The position numbers were made by a program, and so were the translations under genes. From positions 620,001-684,000 of the forward strand of contig NZ_PJNH01000001.1 in the NCBI RefSeq assembly GCF_002844535.1: a DNA stretch of 64,000 nucleotides, read 5' to 3'. The first letter of the stretch is position 1. Every line of letters begins with the position of its first letter. Of this stretch, positions 5,167 through 43,349 are shown one piece after another. Under the pieces are notes generated by a model. That model was not told the DNA's origin, did not search any database, and saw only the letters and a list, made by a program, of their open reading frames with translations. This stretch comes from Halalkalibacillus sediminis. Its GTDB lineage: Bacteria > Bacillota > Bacilli > Bacillales > Alkalibacillaceae.

Positions 5167-8100
5167 TTGGATACTTCCTGTAAAAGGTTCCGGTACTTAG
5201 CAATTAATTCATCATTTTCAAAGAAAGATTTCTTAGACTGTATTAACCTGGTTTGTTCCTCTAAAATTTCTTCATATGCTTCTGATATTGACTTTTCGAA
5301 CTTCTGTTCATATGCTTTAATGAAAATCTCTTCAAAGAGCTGAGTCATATCTTTCACTTCACTATCAATCAGCTGGCTTAATTGTTCAAATAAGTCTTTT
5401 ATTTCTTGATTTTCGAAAAAACTTTTCTTGTCTTTGAATACGCTAGCTACCTGAGTTAATTTTTCCTCATTTAAATTGGAGAAAATCTTAGGTGGCTCAA
5501 TCGAGTCAACTTCTTCTGCTTCGAAATAAAATGCAGAGAAACTCGTGTTTTGTTCAACATAAGAATTTGCATCCTCAACAAACGATTTTTTAGCCCGATT
5601 GAAAGTAGCATCTAACAGAATATTGGTTGATTGGAACTCATTACTTAAGTTTTGTTCCAATTTAATAATCATCTGTTTGATCGCTTGTCTTACTTCAGTT
5701 CTACCTTTTTTGCCATTGGATTCGATGGTCGCAGGATTGATGGATTCCTTCATATAATCAGTTAACTGAATAAGTGTACGTTCATGAACGTAGTGATTCA
5801 ACTCTTTAGTTTGTTGATGGATTTCATTGAAATAAACAGTCAAATCTACTGATTCGTACCACTCTTTAAATCTAGCTTGATCATTTTTCATTTCATTGAG
5901 AATTTCTGCTTGTCTTTCTTTATCTTGAGTGGACTCCTCAAGAATTTTTTTCAAGAAGCTTTTCAACTTATCCATTTCAAACCGGATTCTTGAGGTAAGC
6001 AACATTTTTGCATCGTTTTGAATAAAGTCATCAAATCTATTAAAGAATGGCACTTGATTGGATTTCTTCTCCCCACTCAATAACTGCTTACTAGAAACCG
6101 GATATACTGCAGGATTTGTAATTTGGTATTGATTCAATTGTTGTTCTAAATAAGTTTGAACCTGCTTAAGTTCTTCGTCTGATTCTGCTAAATCGGCCGC
6201 ATTCAAGATAAAGAACATCTTATCCATTGAAAAGCTGTTCTGTACTCTTCCTAATCGAAGTAAAAATTCCCTATCAGCTCTGGCAAATGCGTGATTATAG
6301 TAATTGACGTAAATAATGAGATCTGAGTGCTTTACATAGTGCATGGAAACATTCGTATGTCTCGCATGGACAGAATCAGCACCAGGTGTATCAACAAGTG
6401 TTACACCTTGTCTCGTCAGTTCGCAGTCGTAGTAAAGCTCAATTTCTTCAACAAAACAAGAAACAGTTTCATCCGTTACGTATGTTGAGTAATTCTGTAT
6501 ATTTACTTGAATCTCTTCACCTAAACGTTCTTTTGAACGAGAATATCCCTGGAAGAATGCATTCACATATGAAGCTTCAGATTTAGATAACTTATCTTCA
6601 AGTTTGTGCCATTTCTTCTGTAAGAACCGATACATTCCAACAAGACTGTCAGATGGCTGATCCTTAACAGGTTCTAATATCTTCTCAAGCTGCTGTTGCA
6701 TTACTTCCTCTGACTTGAAAGATACGATAACTTCTTTATGAGAATGATCAATATTGGGCGGACAGATCTTATTTATGGCTGCAGTAGTCGGGTTTGGAGA
6801 CACAGGTAATAGTTCTTCCCCAATCCAAGCGTTAGCAAATGAAGATTTACCTGCACTGAATGCCCCAAATAAAGCAACAGTGAACTCCATTTGTTCATAT
6901 TGATTAATCTTCTGATCGATTGTTTCATAAAAATGACTTAGTTGCTCCGTTGATTTCATTTGATCTTTAAGGTAACGAGCTTGTTGCACAAGAGCGTCAG
7001 GGTCCCTATTGCCAGAGAGTTCCTCCCTCTCCCCTTGACTTTGCTTAGTAAACTCGTCTTTCGGTTGTTTACTGTTTTCTAAAATATAATTCAGATCAAC
7101 TTGTTTATACTCACTGTTAATTCGCTCAATGTAAGTATTAATTTCTTTTTCTTCAGTAGCCTTAGTATCGAATGTCAGATCGTTTAATCGATCTAAAAAC
7201 TCTTCTTTTTGTCGCGTGTTTTGATCGATTGTCTCAGCTTTACCAATTTTACTCCGGATTTCATTTAGAACAGTCTTGCGCTCTTCAATTTGAGACTCCA
7301 ACTGCAAGCCGAGTTGATCGCCGATTTTCTTAATTACTGGACTAAGATCATTTTTGATTTCTCGAACACAGTATTGTTGCAAGTCTTGTGTGAAACGCAG
7401 GACATAATCAGAATTAATCTCAGCTGACGGATTTAAAACGGTTTTTAAATCTGCTCCATTCAGGGAAAATTTAAAATCTTGAATTTCCTGGACGATTACT
7501 GAGTCTTTAATCACATATTCTTTTATGTAGCCCATGAAGAATTCACGAATGTGCCAAACCATTTCTGACTGGATCCGTTCATTGATCTTATTAAGAAATT
7601 GAGACTCACGGAGTTCTTTTTCCTCTTCAGTCTTTTTCTTCGAAGTGAATAAAGAGCCGACTTTAAATTTGTGGTGATTCGACTCCAACCATTTTTCGGC
7701 AAGCTCTCTTGTATCGAATGTCATCAAATAAGCATTCTGTAATAAATTCGAGACTTCGGAATGCATTTTCTTGGCAGCTGATTTTTTGAATTCCTCTAAT
7801 TCCTCAATGGCACTCAAAATTTCCTGCTCTTCAGTTTTAAGTGTGTCTAATGATACCTCAAAAGAATACTCCTCAACTTCAAAACGAGTATCTACGTATT
7901 CACTAATACACTTCTTAACTTCGTGTTGAGTTCTTTTATCAATAATAGCTCTTTTATTTGCCATTACTGAATCCAACTTTGAAATTAAGTCATTTACTTC
8001 ATTTCTAGGGTGATCGTCACTTTTTAAAGTAGTAAAATAGATCGAATCTGGCTTCAAGCCCCACTCATCACAACTGTCGTATAGTGCTTGTTTATATACC

Positions 8101-8759: not shown

Positions 8760-9815
8760 CTATCGCTCAAATGTTTCATCGAAAACAGCACGATTTTTCC
8801 CATTTTCTTTTGCATAATAAAGGTTACGGTCAGCGCGTTTGAGCATAGATTGTTTTGTATCAGTTGATTGATATTTAGTCACACCATAACTCAATGTAAT
8901 CTGGTAATCTTTTAACTCAGGAATCATTTGAACACTTTGTTCGAAATGTTGGTTCCAATTTTTGATTTGTTTTTCTAAAGCTGACTTTTCCGTTTCAAAT
9001 AAAATGATCGAGAATTCTTCTCCTCCGTAGCGGAAACAATATCCTTGGCTTTTAGGTAGATTCGTTTTAAATGTATTTCCTAATGTATATAACACTTGGT
9101 CACCTAGTGTGTGTCCAAATCGATCATTAACTTGTTTAAAATCATCAATATCAATCATCATCATTGAAATATTTTTTTGAGTTGAAGTAAGTTTTTCCAA
9201 TGTGTTCTGAAAAGAACGGTGGTTATATAAATCAGTTACATAATCCTTTAACGATTGATCTTGATAATTCATTTTATCTTGATAGTGAAGTCGTTCGCGA
9301 TAAGCAAGAACGCCTGCAAAAAAACCGATAATTATGAAAAACATCGTATTGAATGCGAACTCCCACACTAGTGAAAACTGATAAAATTGCTCGAGGCCTA
9401 TTCCGATTGCTGCATATCCAAGCGCTGACGCTACAATAGAAAAAGATAAGCCCTTTACACTCCAATAGATTGTAGCATGCATAATTAGCAGAAAAACAAC
9501 TGGAACAAAAGGACTCTCGATACCACCTGAAAGTGCAATCAGCCACATAATAGCTATGTAATCACAAATTATTCCGAACTTCATAATGTTTCGCTGAATA
9601 CGTTCACGCTTCAATCTGAAAAACAAAAAAACTTGCGTCATGAACATATAGCAAAAAGCAAATACAATCAAATAGAAAAATGTATTGGTATTAAAGTTCA
9701 ACTGACTAGAAAAAGGTTCCAAGTAGAATAATGCTGCTGAAATAGCTAAAAAGAGCCAACGGATAATCGAAAATAGCTGCTCTGTTTGAAAATCGTTCAT
9801 ATATATCTTTGTCAT
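8760..9815 (-). CDS. Membrane-bound diguanylate cyclase (GGDEF)
   Basis: A 351-residue protein with about five or six transmembrane helices in residues 15-165, then a GGDEF domain (about 195-345) that makes c-di-GMP from two GTP. The active-site motif is RYGGEEF near residue 264. MIDIDDFKQVNDRFGH supplies the metal-binding Asp and the substrate site. The membrane part has no recognised sensor name. ATG 9815 is preferred because it follows AAGGGAG at 8 nt; a 20-codon longer frame would run into the leader element at 9852-9974. That leader ends in a terminator-like hairpin, so expression is probably attenuated. No EAL or HD-GYP phosphodiesterase is seen nearby. Confidence 0.9.
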   Translation of the reverse strand: MTKIYMNDFQTEQLFSIIRWLFLAISAALFYLEPFSSQLNFNTNTFFYLIVFAFCYMFMTQVFLFFRLKRERIQRNIMKFGIICDYIAIMWLIALSGGIESPFVPVVFLLIMHATIYWSVKGLSFSIVASALGYAAIGIGLEQFYQFSLVWEFAFNTMFFIIIGFFAGVLAYRERLHYQDKMNYQDQSLKDYVTDLYNHRSFQNTLEKLTSTQKNISMMMIDIDDFKQVNDRFGHTLGDQVLYTLGNTFKTNLPKSQGYCFRYGGEEFSIILFETEKSALEKQIKNWNQHFEQSVQMIPELKDYQITLSYGVTKYQSTDTKQSMLKRADRNLYYAKENGKNRAVFDETFER

Positions 9816-9851
9816 ATGTCTTCTCCCTTGATTGTGAAAAATAAGTTTCAT

Positions 9852-9974
9852 GAGAAAAACTTGGCTTTTCGCCAAGTCCTAATGGCGAAAGCCTTTGTTT
9901 TTCACATACTTTAACCCTTTAATAAAGTTAAACATTCTTAAAGTAAAATAAAAACTCGCCATCCAGCGAGTTTT
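9852..9974 (-). ncRNA. Candidate structured leader / attenuator, copy A
   Basis: Read on the minus strand (the sense of the diguanylate cyclase mRNA), the element has four parts. First is a hairpin with a 9-bp stem (9951-9974). Second is a stem UACUUUAA/UUAAAGUA enclosing CUUU-AUU-AAAG. Third is GGCUUUCGCCA (9883-9893). Fourth is ACUUGGC-GAAAA-GCCAAGU (9859-9877), followed by UUUUUC, which is a textbook intrinsic terminator. The third part can instead pair with UGGCGAAAAGCC of the fourth, making an antiterminator. A second copy at 40411-40531 is about 90% identical in the first 61 bp and keeps the pairings. I do not recognise it as a named riboswitch. Confidence 0.6.
9951..9974. terminator. 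Bidirectional terminator-like hairpin
   Basis: AAAACTCGC and GCGAGTTTT form a 9-bp stem around CATCCA, with A and T tracts on both sides. It could end transcription from the ferredoxin gene and is also the distal hairpin of leader copy A. Confidence 0.65.
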
Positions 9975-10028
9975 GGCGGCCTATGTATAGTACACTAATT
10001 AGTCCTATTTGACTTTGCTAGCGCTTAT

Positions 10029-10060
10029 TTAAAAAGAGGCTGAATACAGTGCACTCAGCC
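10029..10060 (-). terminator. Terminator of the ferredoxin gene
   Basis: On the minus strand GGCTGA and TCAGCC pair around a 10-nt loop and are followed by TCTTTTT. Confidence 0.75.
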
Positions 10061-10073
10061 CCTACTTTATGAA

Positions 10074-10310
10074 TTACTCTTGGAAAAATTTACGATTAAT
10101 TTCAATGTATTTCTCTTCTTCTTCTGGTAGTTCATCCTCATGATAGATTGCTTCTACAGGGCAGACAGCTTCGCATGCTCCACAATCAATACAAATATCT
10201 GGATCGATATAGAACATATCTTTTCCTTCTTCTATACAATCAACCGGACAAACTTCAACGCATTCGCCAGCTTTTTCATCTTTACATGGTGACGTGATTA
10301 CAAATGCCAA
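10074..10310 (-). CDS. 7Fe-type ferredoxin
   Basis: A 78-residue soluble electron carrier. The N-terminal MAFVITSPC and the spacing C-x7-C-x3-C-x3-CIEE point to a 3Fe-4S or modified cluster site. CIDCGACEAVCP is a complete 4Fe-4S ligand set. The acidic C-terminus ends in a helix. The start is set at TTG 10310, because GGAGGG lies the right distance upstream and the resulting N-terminus matches the family; a longer frame to 10328 would cover the ribosome site. It is monocistronic. The partner enzymes cannot be told from the context. Confidence 0.88.
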   Translation of the reverse strand: MAFVITSPCKDEKAGECVEVCPVDCIEEGKDMFYIDPDICIDCGACEAVCPVEAIYHEDELPEEEEKYIEINRKFFQE

Positions 10311-10456
10311 AAGTAAACCCTCCTTCATATTATAACTATATGGTTATCATACCATTAAATAAAAAGAAACTCCAAATGAATATGCATATGATTTTACGAA
10401 TTATAAGGAGAATTTTTGACATTTTGAGTTGAACTTTGCAAAAGGAGTAGATAAAA

Positions 10457-11644
10457 ATGATCATTAAGATCCAACCAGGCACCACGATGTACAATATTGC
10501 TGTAGCTTTTCAACTACCACTCGGAATCGTAATTGCCTCTAATCCAAACAAAGACCCAAATAATTTGTCCATCGGGGATACTCTCCAAATTCCAGGGTAT
10601 CAAGCTGATACTCGTTTAATTAATGCTGGCGATACCTATTGGTCCATTAGTCAACAAGAAAATACTGATATAAACCAATTGAGATTGGCTAATCAATACT
10701 CGCCAGAAAATTTACCTATAGGGCGTAACCTTAATATACCTAAAATGGTCAGAGGGACGATCGTACAAACAGATCGAATTTATTCATCTTCATTGATGGA
10801 AGAACATCTTAAGGAGCTTGTGGAAGTATATCCATTCTTAGATCTACGTGTGATTGGGCAGTCCGTAATGGGTAAGCCAATCTATGAAGTCAGGGTGGGA
10901 AGTGGCTCCAAATTGGTTCATGTGAATGGGTCATTCCATGCCAATGAAGCAATTACCACTAGTGTGATCATGAAGTTTATCGAAGAGTATGCCGAAGCTA
11001 TAACAACCAATGAACCTATACGAGGTAACAATATGATGAATTACTTTGAGAATGTAACCCTCTCCCTTGTACCGATGGTGAATCCAGATGGAGTTGATTT
11101 GCTTGCTGAAGGAGTTCCAAGTGAACAAGAGTACAGAGATTTGGCACTAGAGATCAATAACAATAGCACTGATTTCAGCGGATGGAAAGCCAATATTAGA
11201 GGAGTAGATTTGAATAATCAATACCCCGCTAATTGGCAAATTGAACAAAACAGAAAGCCTAAACAGCCATCACCACGAGATTTTCCTGGAAACGCACCAT
11301 TAACTGAACCAGAAGCAATCGCAATGGCAGAACTGGTTGGCAGGGAAAATTTTGATCGCGTTCTAGCTTTGCACACACAAGGGCAAGTTATATTTTGGGG
11401 ATATGAAGGTCTCGAGCCACCAGAATCTCAGGAAATCGTTTCTGAATACAGTAGAGTGAGTAGCTTTGCCCCTATTAGATATGTCGATAGTCATGCTGGG
11501 TTTAAAGATTGGTTCATTCAAGAATTTCGTCTTCCAGGTTTTACAGTTGAGCTTGGAAAAGGAGTCAATCCATTACCTTTTAACCAATTTGACGAAATGT
11601 ATGAACAAATGCTCGGTATCTTTCTTGCGAACAGTTACATTTAA
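10457..11644 (+). CDS. LysM-containing M14 zinc peptidase (gamma-D-glutamyl-meso-DAP peptidase type)
   Basis: A 395-residue protein with two LysM peptidoglycan-binding repeats (about 1-45 and 50-97), each ending in a NIP/QIP-type motif, followed by an M14 carboxypeptidase fold. The zinc ligands appear as His161 and Glu164 in SFHANE and His306 in LHTQGQ. The catalytic Glu is Glu365 in TVELGKG. This is the architecture of Lysinibacillus ENP I and B. subtilis YqgT, which cut the gamma-D-Glu-meso-DAP bond of cell-wall peptides. No signal peptide is seen, as in those relatives. The ATG follows AAAGGAGTAG. A role in sporulation or wall recycling is inferred from the family. Confidence 0.88.
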   Translation: MIIKIQPGTTMYNIAVAFQLPLGIVIASNPNKDPNNLSIGDTLQIPGYQADTRLINAGDTYWSISQQENTDINQLRLANQYSPENLPIGRNLNIPKMVRGTIVQTDRIYSSSLMEEHLKELVEVYPFLDLRVIGQSVMGKPIYEVRVGSGSKLVHVNGSFHANEAITTSVIMKFIEEYAEAITTNEPIRGNNMMNYFENVTLSLVPMVNPDGVDLLAEGVPSEQEYRDLALEINNNSTDFSGWKANIRGVDLNNQYPANWQIEQNRKPKQPSPRDFPGNAPLTEPEAIAMAELVGRENFDRVLALHTQGQVIFWGYEGLEPPESQEIVSEYSRVSSFAPIRYVDSHAGFKDWFIQEFRLPGFTVELGKGVNPLPFNQFDEMYEQMLGIFLANSYI

Positions 11645-28304: not shown

Positions 28305-28702
28305 AGTGACCTGGAAGTGTTTGGTAAGCCATGTTCTGTACTTTAGTACTACAAACGGTGGTCAACCTCGTACGCCAGTAGTAATCATCTATCTACAAGC
28401 AATAGCTTGTCCTTCTGCACAGTTCATTTTCTTGCAGAAAGTGCCCCTACCTTATTTTGGGTTGCTCACTCGTGGGGTTTACCGCGTTCCACATTGATCG
28501 TTTCCGAGTCAATTTCGTCTCTGTGGCACATTAAAGGTAATCGAACCATATCAAAAGACTTAGGTTCTTTCCCTGCCGTTAGCCAACGAAGGCTACCTTG
28601 ACTTATGACTTCGTCAAGCACGAACACTACAAGCATCTCAGCTTGTGTGAGCATGGACTTTCCTCTCTGTTAACCAGAGCGATTACTTCAACACTTCCAA
28701 AT
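28305..28702 (-). ncRNA. rnpB: RNase P RNA, class B
   Basis: Read on the minus strand, the conserved core is plain: GAGGAAAGTCCATGCTC near the 5' end, GTAGTGTTCGTGC, the loop AACGGCAGGGAAA, GTGGAACGCGGTAAACCCC, then GTAGATAGATGATTACTACTGG, and GTACAGAACATGGCTTAC near the 3' end. Terminal GGAAGTGTT (28698-28690) and AACACTTCC (28321-28313) pair as helix P1. This is the Bacillus (type B) catalytic RNA that matures tRNA 5' ends. The place between gpsB and rlmL is the B. subtilis one. Open frames crossing it are not genes. Ends are given to within a few bases. Confidence 0.96.
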
Positions 28703-39667: not shown

Positions 39668-40393
39668 TCATGAATTATCTTGTCGTTCTAAAAATAGATC
39701 GTATCTTTCATCACGAATTTCTACATGAATCGAGAGGTTTTTCTGTAAATAATAACTATCCACCCACTCTTGGTGAAGTAGCTCATCCACTTCACGGTTA
39801 TTTTTTTGTTGATCAATGATAGCAACTTCAGGGTCTAACTGTTGAATATCTTCTGTAAAGTGAGACCCTATGGAGTGACTGCCTAAGTAAAGTAAATGTA
39901 CCTTTTGGGGTAACTCGAGGCTTTTTATAGGTGAAAAATACCAAAAGCTTTTAAACGAACCGTTTGTAATAGCAAAATTCTTATTTCCACCATCATTAAT
40001 AATCTTAATTGTATAACCATTTTCTAACGTAATATTCTCGGGTTCATTTACTAAATCGAACGATGAATTTTTTGAGCATACCTCTGAATTCGAGGAATTA
40101 GTTGAGTATATTGTTTGTATTTCAAAGTTGAGTTCCTCTAGGGTTTCACAATCTTTCTCTTTTAAGTTCAAAGCTAATAATCCTATAACTGGCTGTTTTT
40201 CTTTACTCATGACCTTTTTTAAAGAATCAACATTCATTTGTTTATCAAGTGGGATTGCAAATAAACCATTCTCGAATTGAAGTACCGCCCAATCATCGTC
40301 AAATGCTGGAGAGAATACAATTTCATCGGCTTCCACAGGCCATCCGATGAAAAGTGTCATTACAACAAGCAAGGCAGAGGATAATTTTCTCAT
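39668..40393 (-). CDS. Secreted degenerate ComEC/metallo-beta-lactamase-like protein
   Basis: A 241-residue protein with a signal peptide (MRKLSSALLVVMTLFIGWPVEA). The order of segments resembles the ComEC extracellular MBL domain: FENGLFAIPLD where iLIDtG is expected, GLLALN where LTH is expected, KNFAITNGSFKSFWYFSPI, and LLYLGSHSIGSHFTEDIQQLDPEVAIID in place of the vpHHGS-PkvaIIs block. The metal-binding HxHxDH motif is not present, so a nuclease function is unlikely. The call is tentative. The 5' leader carries the second copy of the structured element seen upstream of the diguanylate cyclase. In B. subtilis ypmA occupies the place between dinG and ypmB. Confidence 0.45.
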   Translation of the reverse strand: MRKLSSALLVVMTLFIGWPVEADEIVFSPAFDDDWAVLQFENGLFAIPLDKQMNVDSLKKVMSKEKQPVIGLLALNLKEKDCETLEELNFEIQTIYSTNSSNSEVCSKNSSFDLVNEPENITLENGYTIKIINDGGNKNFAITNGSFKSFWYFSPIKSLELPQKVHLLYLGSHSIGSHFTEDIQQLDPEVAIIDQQKNNREVDELLHQEWVDSYYLQKNLSIHVEIRDERYDLFLERQDNS

Positions 40394-40410
40394 TTGATTC
40401 CATCCTTATT

Positions 40411-40531
40411 GAGAAAAACCTGGCTTATCGCCAAGTTCTAATAGCGAAAGCCTTAGTTTTCACATACTTTAGTCCTTTTGAAAAGATAATCAATCTTTAA
40501 GTATTAGAAAAACTTGCCTGTCAGCAAACCT
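40411..40531 (-). ncRNA. Candidate structured leader / attenuator, copy B
   Basis: Second copy of the element at 9852-9974, in the same sense relative to its gene and ending 18 nt before the ComEC-like start. The terminator hairpin ACUUGGC-GAUAA-GCCAGGU (40436-40418) keeps pairing through a G-U change, and UUUUUC follows. The alternative partner GGCUUUCGCUA (40452-40442) keeps pairing with UGGCGAUAAGCC through a second G-U. The inner CUUU-UCA-AAAG hairpin has a changed loop and an unchanged stem. These compensated changes favour an RNA structure over a plain DNA repeat. Confidence 0.6.
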
Positions 40532-40599: not shown

Positions 40600-43287
40600 T
40601 CAATTATTATATGTTACCCAATTTTTTGCATCTTGAATGATATGGTCGGTATTTTCATGAGTAATAGGTAAATCCGGTAAAGATTTAACGAAATGCTTAC
40701 CGTAACTCTTTTTCATCATTCTTTGATCTAACACAAACAAAATTCCTCGATCTTCATTATTTCTAATCAAACGCCCGTACGCCTGTCTGAATCGCAAAAT
40801 AGCTTGTGGTAAAGCCAGATGGTAGAAAGGGTTTTTATCTTGATCATGGTACCAATTGGCTTTTGCTCTTAACACTGGATGATTCGGCGGGTCGAAAGGC
40901 AATCGGACAAGAATTATGACTTTTAGGCTTTCGCCAGAAATATCGACACCTTCCCAAAAAGAATTTGTTCCCAACAAAACTGCGTGCTCACTTCGTTCGA
41001 ACATTTTCTTCAACTTATCTTTACTACCTGTACTAATTCCTTGCGATAAAACGTCAAATGAATTTACTGATAGCATTGATTTTAATTCGTAATGAACGTC
41101 ATTCAACATTTCGTATGAAGTAAAGAGCACAATCGCTTTATCATTTACTTCATCTAATATTTTTTTAGTAAATCGAGCTATTTCAGATGCATACTTCTTT
41201 GGATTCGAATGTATAACATTCGGAAAATCATTCGGTACGTATATCCTGGTTTGCTCCTGTAATTTATAATCAGCTGGTATTGTGACTTTCTTAATATCTT
41301 CTTCCAGCCCTAATGGCTCAAGAAAAGTAGAATAAGATTGATTTGTCTTCAATGTTGCACTTGTAAATATGGTGGATTTTCGATTCTTATTTTCAAACAA
41401 CCCTTGCATGTATGGTTTGAGAACCATAGGTTGAAGGTTGATTTGAACAGCATTCTTGGCACCATCTTGATCAATCTCTATCCAACGAATAGCCATGTGA
41501 TCCTCTTGAAAAAACAATTCAAGGACGTTTAGCATTTTTTTAAGGCGTTCCATCAGTTGAATGTGGAATATTTTAGTCCGTTCTCGACTTTTTATTTGCC
41601 CGGCCATCGTTCGTATTAATTTTTGACAAGCAGCTACGAATTCACTAAAGGACTGTTTGATTGGGCCTTGTTGAAATAAAGAAAGATGCTCTTCATCTAA
41701 AAATAATTGAAACTTTCCTGTATCTGATAATTCGTTATCACTTTCGTGTAGAAAATCTACAGCTTCATATACATTTCTAAAAAATTCATCCGCTTGTGCT
41801 TTAGCTTGTTCTACTTCTATAAAATCCTGAAAACGACTTATACTTCCTAATAAATCCACTAAACCAACGTAATCGATTTTCTTAGCAAGTTGATTTCTTG
41901 CGACATTCTCAAAATGATGAGCTTCATCAATAATCATATATGGATAATCGAGCATGTCGACGGAATCTTTACGATCAGGATTTAGCAAAAATGCATGGTT
42001 CACAACTACTACATTTGCCTGCTTTGCTTCTTGCTCAGCTAAATGATAATAAGAAGATCGCTCCTCCTCTTTATTCCCAGCGTCATCCCCAGAAATAAAG
42101 GGCCAAATATGTTCGCCTTTGGTAGGTAGTTGTAACTCTTCCCGATCACCCGTTTTAGTTTCGGTCAACCAGACTAGAATGATTGACAATGACAAGATGA
42201 TGTCATAGTTAGAATGGATTGGGTAAGTTTCGAGAAAAAGTCTCAACCTTTCTAAATTGATATAGTGGGATGAGCTTTTCAAGAGCGAAACTTGGATCGG
42301 TAATTCTGTACTTTCTGCTATCTTCATCCAGTCTTTTACAATAATTTGATTTTGTAGTTGTATCGTTTGGGTACTTATCACTACCTGCTCTTTATTCCTT
42401 AAAGAGAAATAAGTTGCTGGAAGTAGATATCCAATGGTCTTACCCATCCCCGCTTCTGCTTCTATAGCAGCATTCTGGTTATTTTGGAAAGAGTGATAAA
42501 TCTCATTCGCCATCTGAATTTGACCAGTACGTGCCTCATTTGGTTCTTGATTAAAGAATTGACCAACAAATTCGTCAAAAGATAACTGGATATCCACATC
42601 AGGTTGTGTAGGTTGGTCGATTCTCTTCACTGCAAACCCATTTTGTAGAATGAGATTATGATCACTTTCATATTTATACCTTTTCTCTTCAATCATGTCG
42701 TCAAGAACCCATTCAAAGTCACTATCATACTGCTGAGAAAATGAGAGCAGTTGTTGCAGTGTTTCTAGAGGAAGCTTGTCTAAACGATTCATGATTTCTA
42801 GGAATAATAATCCCGTTACATAAGCATCAGATAACGCCCTATGAGGAGAAAAGTGTTCTATATGTAAATAAGATGTTAGTTCTGATAATTTGTATCCATC
42901 TGCAAAAGGAAGAAAAATACGAGACAGCTCTACTGTATCTATCGTTGGGCATTCTAATCCCGAATAACCATTCCTTAATAAGGCATCATTTAAAAAATCA
43001 TAATCAAACTTAGCATTATGAGCGATGAAATAGCGGTCTTCGAAGAATGGCATGATATCAGCTAGAACTTCTTGAATGGTTGGTGCATTTTTAACATCTT
43101 CATTCGTCAAACCTGTTAAACGGCTGATGAAAGGAGGAATCGAGTGTGTAGGACGAACCTTAGTCGAGTATTCATCGACAATTTGGTCATTATCGATGAC
43201 AACAAGTCCCACTTCAATGATTTCATCCCCACGCTTTGGTGAGTGTCCAGTAGTTTCTAGGTCTAATACTACATATCGATTCAACAT
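40600..43287 (-). CDS. dinG: DinG-family helicase with N-terminal DnaQ-like exonuclease
   Basis: An 895-residue protein of the Firmicutes DinG type. The N-terminal DEDDh exonuclease domain (about 1-170) has VVLDLETTG with Asp9 and Glu11. The XPD/DinG-like helicase follows, with Walker A AEAGMGKT near 277-285, the DEAH box IIDEAHHFENVA, and later GTNSFWEGVDISG and RFRQAYGRLIR. The four Fe-S Cys of E. coli DinG are not seen, in keeping with Gram-positive members that have 3'-5' exonuclease activity. ATG 43287 follows AAGAGGAGG. It lies downstream of panD beyond a terminator; no LexA box was seen upstream. Confidence 0.93.
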   Translation of the reverse strand: MLNRYVVLDLETTGHSPKRGDEIIEVGLVVIDNDQIVDEYSTKVRPTHSIPPFISRLTGLTNEDVKNAPTIQEVLADIMPFFEDRYFIAHNAKFDYDFLNDALLRNGYSGLECPTIDTVELSRIFLPFADGYKLSELTSYLHIEHFSPHRALSDAYVTGLLFLEIMNRLDKLPLETLQQLLSFSQQYDSDFEWVLDDMIEEKRYKYESDHNLILQNGFAVKRIDQPTQPDVDIQLSFDEFVGQFFNQEPNEARTGQIQMANEIYHSFQNNQNAAIEAEAGMGKTIGYLLPATYFSLRNKEQVVISTQTIQLQNQIIVKDWMKIAESTELPIQVSLLKSSSHYINLERLRLFLETYPIHSNYDIILSLSIILVWLTETKTGDREELQLPTKGEHIWPFISGDDAGNKEEERSSYYHLAEQEAKQANVVVVNHAFLLNPDRKDSVDMLDYPYMIIDEAHHFENVARNQLAKKIDYVGLVDLLGSISRFQDFIEVEQAKAQADEFFRNVYEAVDFLHESDNELSDTGKFQLFLDEEHLSLFQQGPIKQSFSEFVAACQKLIRTMAGQIKSRERTKIFHIQLMERLKKMLNVLELFFQEDHMAIRWIEIDQDGAKNAVQINLQPMVLKPYMQGLFENKNRKSTIFTSATLKTNQSYSTFLEPLGLEEDIKKVTIPADYKLQEQTRIYVPNDFPNVIHSNPKKYASEIARFTKKILDEVNDKAIVLFTSYEMLNDVHYELKSMLSVNSFDVLSQGISTGSKDKLKKMFERSEHAVLLGTNSFWEGVDISGESLKVIILVRLPFDPPNHPVLRAKANWYHDQDKNPFYHLALPQAILRFRQAYGRLIRNNEDRGILFVLDQRMMKKSYGKHFVKSLPDLPITHENTDHIIQDAKNWVTYNN

Positions 43288-43314
43288 AATCCTCCTCTTA
43301 ACCGTCCTCCAAAA

Positions 43315-43349
43315 ATATGAAAAAATAACCCCCATGGAATGGGAGGTTA
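43315..43349 (-). terminator. Terminator of the panBCD operon
   Basis: On the minus strand, AACCTCCCAT and ATGGGGGTT pair around TCC and are followed by ATTTTTTC. The stem overlaps the panD stop codon. Confidence 0.75.

Follow-up and report, generated by a model that had tools for sequence, protein, structure and literature searches.

A structured stretch upstream of a diguanylate cyclase gene in Halalkalibacillus sediminis, which had been proposed from its sequence alone to be one of two copies of a riboswitch or attenuator, belongs to a repeat of which that genome holds about 50 copies, and this repeat is most probably a widespread non-autonomous mobile element, made up of two hairpins over about 95-100 bp, that targets intrinsic terminators. 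Some 50 folded copies have landed behind the stop signals of other genes, which speaks for a small mobile element rather than for a dedicated switch. The element is shown to lie in one orientation at the ends of T-tracts, about half of the copies being in recognisable intrinsic terminators. The copy beside the cyclase gene (copy A) is probably a bystander there, or at most a weak barrier to read-through, and any effect that it has on that gene is probably incidental, with incidental termination among the possibilities.

Table 1 Features of copies A and B of the repeat. Positions are those of the window, i.e. the whole stretch of 64,000 nucleotides that was analysed; C1 marks positions on the contig.
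Feature	Position	Strand	Remarks
Copy A of the dispersed repeat	9851..9946	minus	Covariance-model match, 96 nt model length; the unit begins at 9946 and ends at 9851; C1:629851-629946
P1 hairpin of copy A	9906..9946	minus	Outer stem TACTTTAA/TTAAAGTA and nested hairpin
P2 hairpin of copy A	9851..9905	minus	A-tract GTGAAAAAC, bulged inner stem, T-tract GTTTTTCTCA
7-bp terminator-like hairpin, alternative to P2	9859..9877	minus	Without conservation across lineages
Terminator-like hairpin immediately 5' of copy A	9951..9974	minus	Presumed insertion target, outside the repeat
Copy B of the repeat	40410..40504	minus	C1:660410-660504

Copies of the repeat and their spread

The hairpins described in the sequence-only reading are confirmed, and the interpretation put on them is partly supported. 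The 7-bp hairpin ACTTGGC-GAAAA-GCCAAGT, followed by TTTTC, is present, as is the stem upstream of it with its nested hairpin, and the alternative pairing described as an antiterminator can also form, GGCTTTCGCCA being able to pair with TGGCGAAAAGCC over 11 pairs with one bulged base. The further hairpin noted upstream of these exists as well, but it is a separate terminator-like site and no part of the repeated unit (Table 1). Copy A lies 35 nt before the start of the cyclase gene (8760-9815, minus strand; GGDEF domain, E = 1.7e-35 in Pfam), while copy B, 83% identical to it over 110 bases (blastn), lies 16 nt before the start of another gene, which begins at 40393 and gave no Pfam match; on its other side copy B is flanked by a gene (40600-43335) that encodes an exonuclease domain and a helicase domain and is presumably DinG-like. 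A search of the minus strand across 9780-10460 gave no sigma-70-like promoter, so that transcripts reaching the cyclase gene may begin further upstream and cross the element. The sole Rfam match at gathering level within the window is a class B RNase P RNA at 28320-28694 (minus strand).

Recurrence of the repeat in its own genome is far beyond chance. A blastn search with copy A gave at least 41 matches at E <= 8.1e-6 (a lower bound, since only 40 of 70 candidates were scored), 40 of which cover at least 84 bases at 88-100% identity, the self-match included, while the remaining one lies opposite a copy, on its other strand. From 53 copies (alignment A1: 41 from this genome and 12 from others) a covariance model, R1, was made, and it gave 60 matches at E <= 0.1 in the 2.86 Mb genome when the best 150 of 1833 candidates were scored; 51 of these fall below 1e-4 and are the copies counted here, and seven of the other nine lie on the opposite strand of listed copies. 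A1 left out a palindrome artefact (L019:1546-1641), repeated copies and matches spanning less than some 56 positions of the consensus; ten of the 51 own copies are absent from it and from the context counts given below. The two copies originally proposed were thus a small part of the whole, and both counts bear out the dispersed repeat that the same reading had named as its alternative.

Beyond H. sediminis, R1 (a covariance model and genome search having been the check suggested at the outset) matches 48 of 299 sampled genomes of the order and 30 of 117 genera, and at E <= 1e-4 it matches nine of 398 genomes in a sample of the phylum, H. sediminis itself being included among both the 48 and the nine. 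Several genomes carry tens of copies. An exact pattern gave 83 stretches in the genome_contigs collection, with carriers in Salirhabdus, Metabacillus, Thalassobacillus, Brevibacillus, Virgibacillus, Gracilibacillus, Filobacillus, Tenuibacillus, Desulforamulus and others, and no match in viral_contigs. Two sets of copies from other genomes were carried forward: the order set of 77, a chosen part of the order-genome matches (five of 82 model matches were dropped, four on the opposite strand and L040), and the genome_contigs set of 80 listed out of the 83 stretches. The two share copies from Filobacillus, Salirhabdus and Bacillus taeanensis, and are therefore not independent.

Membership of a known RNA family was sought in several ways. 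At gathering threshold Rfam 15 places no family on the element in the window, c-di-GMP riboswitches included, in agreement with the initial view that it does not match the c-di-GMP-I consensus; a low-threshold scan of copy A gave weak, chance-like matches, the best at 21.2 bits against a threshold of 45 bits. Scans of 14 loci from other genomes listed a neighbouring T-box and a BsrC and nothing else, both of them lying off the element, and two own loci gave nothing. Bacillaceae-1 RNA, which we take to be characterised by RUCCU loops, here on the opposite strand, was considered for the element and occurs in neither the gathering nor the low-threshold listing. A search of the literature (open-licence papers) found no description of this repeat family.

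Folding and covariation

The repeat is defined by hairpin P1 (ATACTxxxx/xxxxAGTAT, with a variable loop) together with a long bulged hairpin, P2, that spans from an A-tract (AAGAAAAAC; in copy A GTGAAAAAC) to GTTTTTCTAA (in copy A CTCA). The median fold of P2 is -20.8 to -23.6 kcal/mol across three copy sets, and 134 of the 162 folds have a true 1-nt bulge on its 3' side, which in 65 of them has exactly six pairs above it and five below.

P1 and P2 covary between genomes. In A1, 92.3% of stem cells are paired, as against 36.7-52.5% when one arm is slid; nine pairs have changed on both sides, compared with 3.3 in shuffles, but slid arms also reach 7-14 such pairs, so that this second measure does not discriminate. 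Row by row, P1 could be compared in 170 of 198 copies (135 of them from other genomes) and P2 in 162. The inner sequences of P1 are exactly complementary across genomes (TTTAA/TTAAA, TATCA/TGATA, TGATA/TATCA, TATCT/AGATA), and perfect inner complements occur in 57 of the 135 rows from other genomes, where shuffles give a mean of 20.6 and a maximum of 32, although many of these rows are related. If only one copy per genome is taken (the first listed), the inner P1 pairs of 35 genomes score 0.743 against 0.615 in shuffles, and none of 5000 shuffles reaches the observed score, even though it is lowered by rows in which the P1 anchor is out of register. For the inner arms of P2 (34 genomes) the corresponding figures are -14.8 kcal/mol and, with the arms exchanged between genomes, -11.4 kcal/mol, again with 0 of 5000 shuffles, although in only nine of the 34 does a genome's own arm pair better than every other.

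The 7-bp terminator behaves differently from P1 and P2, showing no compensatory pairs and being 94.0% paired as against 94.2% in shuffles. With a stem of at least 6 it can form in 28 of the 35 own copies, in 30 of 67 in the order set and in 33 of 60 in the genome_contigs set, but in just three of the 19 order members that have a P2 other than the GGCTTTCGC type. Of the two pairings in the postulated terminator/antiterminator switch, then, it is not the case that both are conserved or covary: covariation is lacking, and the alternative is mostly gone where the sequence of P2 differs. What does hold is the observation that conservation reaches past the terminator, the element being structured and covarying between genera. 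It had also been suggested that many copies bearing no relation to gene starts and showing no covariation, or else an Rfam match, would reduce the motif to a mere repeat or a known family; the copies are indeed many and are not tied to gene starts, but they do covary and have no Rfam match.

Position, empty sites and turnover

T occupies 69-100% of each of the five positions 5' of the element, and a recognisable intrinsic terminator precedes it in 89 of 171 copies, as against three of 513 control windows (taken 60-120 nt beyond the element, and not all of them intergenic). The 171 are those among the 198 copies that have a recognisable start and enough flank. Set by set, the copies with a terminator that ends no more than 8 nt 5' of the element number 24 of 39 (own), 35 of 72 (order) and 30 of 60 (genome_contigs), with one each in 117, 216 and 180 control windows; an earlier count had given 24/41, 37/77 and 31/79, against 2/174, 5/305 and 3/444 random positions. 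The other 82 of the 171 have no terminator by the strict rule, though most have a T-tract, and some copies follow T-runs that read, by eye, as the 3' ends of coding sequences (L046, L085, L086). From terminator stem to element the median distance is 8-8.5 nt (range 6-15), bearing in mind that the strict rule itself confines this distance to roughly 5-17 nt; the element thus begins about where transcripts come to an end.

Gene context, assessed with a crude gene caller, agrees with a position set from the 5' side. The upstream gene is co-directional with the element in 150 of 198 cases, opposed in 38 and not called in ten; on the downstream side 129 copies have a gene that shares their direction, 60 have a convergent one and nine have none called. 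Gaps bearing the element (171) are tandem in 127 cases, convergent in 35 and divergent in nine, as against 214, 58 and 82 among 354 other gaps of at least 30 nt in the same loci, and this shortage of divergent gaps implies that copies avoid the space between two gene starts, just where leaders would be expected in number. The steady position before co-directional genes that would mark a dedicated cis-regulatory leader is not seen, and a signal-sensing attenuator controlling c-di-GMP synthesis, as first envisaged, finds no support in a position that follows the 5' T-tract or terminator and not the 3' start codon.

Several individual contexts may be recorded here. At about 1501-1591 of L086 the element lies between two genes, which we take to be purF and purM, and the upstream reading frame ends inside it. 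In L004:1147-1603 (C4:198201-198657) two copies lie about 360 bp apart, the second inside an apparent T-box leader, with GGGTGGTACCGCGG 3' of the copy (by eye), and in L074 a copy adjoins an Rfam T-box. Within Thalassobacillus the element is contained in a larger dispersed repeat of about 180-310 bp (L156, L163, L178, L180, L186, L198, L216); this was considered as an autonomous form, and is provisionally taken instead for a second repeat bearing an insertion.

At two sites, in a comparison unpolarised as to the ancestral state, the element is missing exactly at the terminator T-tract. At one of them M. niabensis has an intact terminator, GTAAGCTTTTTTTT, which runs straight into the flank that elsewhere is found 3' of the element, the filled counterparts being in M. 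halosaccharovorans and Bacillus sp. J37; a second clean empty site in Metabacillus, GGTCGGCTTTTTT, has the same arrangement. A target duplication of at least 3 bp is seen at neither site, with 0-2 nt left ambiguous by the T-tract. At a third site (L204) M. halosaccharovorans lacks the element and M. niabensis retains a remnant of it that is partly deleted, so that this may be a loss, while a fourth query (L224) proved to be filled in M. halosaccharovorans and to have no clear orthologous site in M. niabensis. Beside the element in Bacillus sp. J37, the stretches L204:4284-4519, 6324-6530 and 7437-7593 have many matches across related genomes and are apparently further dispersed repeats.

Between orthologous copies, divergence is about as rapid as in the adjacent DNA. 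Nine such pairs show differences at 44 of 870 positions within the element and at 42 of 1078 within the 120 nt of 3' flank; the pairs were chosen by an exact 25-base match within the element, which biases the element towards conservation, and two align poorly at their 5' ends. Of the 109 non-consensus stem cells among the H. sediminis copies, 78 disrupt pairing. Singletons number 38 in 68 stem columns and 34 in 28 unpaired columns, and this relative rarity in stems means that a weak constraint is possible. Taken together, the drift of resident copies and the covariation between lineages suggest that selection acts on propagating copies more than on each resident copy.

One genus (g39) stands somewhat apart, in that the element lies before the same permease gene, which we take to be OppB/DppB-like, in four genomes (G048, G090, G149, G174). 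By eye, the changes at loci L073, L084, L088 and L123 keep the inner P1 hairpin, and a second copy in G090 (L130), before a start that begins alike, probably has the same permease context. These copies may be putative recruited regulators.

Movement, rival explanations and known systems

If the repeat is indeed mobile, we infer that its folded strand, whether ssDNA or RNA, would be recognised by a mobility enzyme acting in trans, and that the A-tract between P1 and P2, which pairs with the element's own 3' T-tract, would also pair with the T-tract of the target, so explaining the choice of target. P2 and its T-tract may serve as a second terminator behind the first, in which case insertion would usually be tolerated. 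It is conceivable, as a more tentative proposal, that the repeat stands for a widespread class of mobile elements of under 100 nt in the Bacillota that use a transcription stop signal as their insertion address, by means of a folded RNA or ssDNA with an A-tract guide and with no target duplication. The guide would pair with the T-tract where the transcript is released, some enzyme would insert the element without duplicating the target, and each copy would supply a new terminator and hence a new landing site; tandem copies do occur (L115).

A number of observations count against the reading as a mobile element. No mobilising enzyme was found in searches for Y1 transposases and reverse transcriptases; the upstream gene points away in the 38 opposed cases; 82 of 171 copies have no strict terminator; singletons in the stems of own-genome copies are about half as frequent per column as in unpaired columns, a hint of some constraint; the own P2 arm is the best partner in nine of 34 genomes only; and in four genomes of a single genus the element has stayed before the same gene. 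A MITE of the DDE type does not account for the repeat, its ends, (G/A)TACT and CTAA/CTCA, not being mutually inverted and the two empty sites being free of a target-site duplication of 3 bp or more.

The rival that survives best, though we regard it as doubtful, is a derivative of IS200/IS605 or RAYT (Y1) elements, moved as ssDNA, with a Y1 transposase recognising the bulged hairpin. The lack of target duplication, the single orientation relative to a short 5' target, the presence of hairpins at both ends and the 1-nt bulge of P2 are all consistent with this, and Y1 genes occur in 12 of 15 other carriers examined (the counts cover carriers alone). Against it, Y1 transposases have no match in the H. 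sediminis genome, with its 51 copies, nor in carriers G002, G005 and G191, and a motif search placed the element near a Y1 gene in only one of 26 fetched loci (24 distinct places out of 63 matches), that one being in Salirhabdus, a many-copy genome; a mobiliser that has been lost, or that is encoded at a distance, may account for this. Elements of the Y1 type usually have a guide spacing between hairpin and element end, whereas P1 starts at the element's very end and leaves no room for one.

Less probable still is an accessory terminator or 3'-end element, perhaps of mobile origin, that hosts maintain to block read-through past leaky terminators or to protect mRNA ends. Its position behind terminators, the T-tract and stability of P2, the scarcity of singletons in stems and the copies kept before the OppB/DppB-like gene would suit such a role; orthologous copies that diverge at about the rate of their flanks, the many own-genome changes that break pairs and the clean absences beside an intact terminator argue the other way.

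The H. sediminis genome has two reverse transcriptases, L135:1346-2884 and L136:1036-2412 (C4), which match RVT_1 alone in Pfam, with no maturase domain, and which may be of the defence type. That at C4:47163 was considered as an autonomous partner of the nearby copy at C4:48566 and set aside, the copy lying outside the enzyme's island (by eye); at the borders of the first enzyme's island the 3' end of the methyltransferase-like gene beside it is repeated (by eye), and after the second comes an ORF of 214 aa that has hydrophobic stretches. It is unlikely, marginally more so than the accessory terminator, that an RNA-borne element is put into terminators in trans by a reverse transcriptase like those of group IIC introns, given that neither own enzyme has a maturase domain and that no Rfam group II ribozyme match was found in the window or in 16 scanned loci, even though group IIC introns are described as having the same terminator target (PMC4424553) and target duplication is absent here.

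A dedicated cis-regulatory attenuator or riboswitch of the cyclase and other genes, choosing between antiterminator and terminator, is very improbable: the distances of copies A and B from gene starts, the possibility of the 7-bp alternative in 28 of 35 own copies and transcripts that may cross the element would accord with it, but it is opposed by about 50 copies in one genome, by 60 of 198 copies that face a convergent downstream gene, by the rarity of divergent gaps, by a terminator pairing that lacks compensatory change and is possible in only three of 19 members with other P2 sequences, and by copies that diverge like their flanks.

Small structured repeats can pass for riboswitches, and this family has the kind of covariation that usually convinces, although its structure is seemingly selected for spreading and not for regulating a neighbouring gene. 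Should terminator-targeted insertion prove true, it would add to group IIC introns a second, very small element that uses terminators as safe sites, and the movement of non-autonomous bacterial repeats would become directly testable. Annotators, for their part, gain a model for a recurrent Bacillota element lacking from Rfam 15.

As a mobile element the repeat has its nearest analogue in kind in SPRITE of S. pneumoniae, which is set beside it here by description and not by sequence. SPRITE is described as an AT-rich dispersed repeat with the shape of a Rho-independent terminator (an 18-bp duplex and a T-rich tract), found in 30 copies, occurring in pneumococcus and S. mitis, enriched near the 3' ends of genes, having no known mobiliser and thought to be parasitic, and no comparable empty site figures in that description (PMC3049150). 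The two are alike in being small, terminator-shaped, present in tens of copies near gene 3' ends and of no known mobiliser; the repeat described here differs in its two hairpins, its many genera, its precise empty sites and its measured terminator target. Group IIC introns, for which insertion at intrinsic terminators is reported (PMC4424553; PMC7161350), share that target, but as described they are ribozymes, typically with a reverse transcriptase, while the present repeat is noncoding, under 100 nt long and without an Rfam group II match. BOX and RUP (PMC3049150) and bcr1-bcr18 of the B. cereus group (PMC3446304) are likewise intergenic, structured, mobile-like repeats, partly co-transcribed, and a BOX has also been located between two T-box leaders; BOX and RUP differ in having terminal inverted repeats and target duplications (PMC3049150), and a terminator target is not among the features described for any of the three in these accounts. 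Within the same phylum, the 74-bp stem-loop repeat Bhal-1 (type I) of Bacillus halodurans, with 36 copies (PMC2267715), could be related to the present repeat, to judge from its description.
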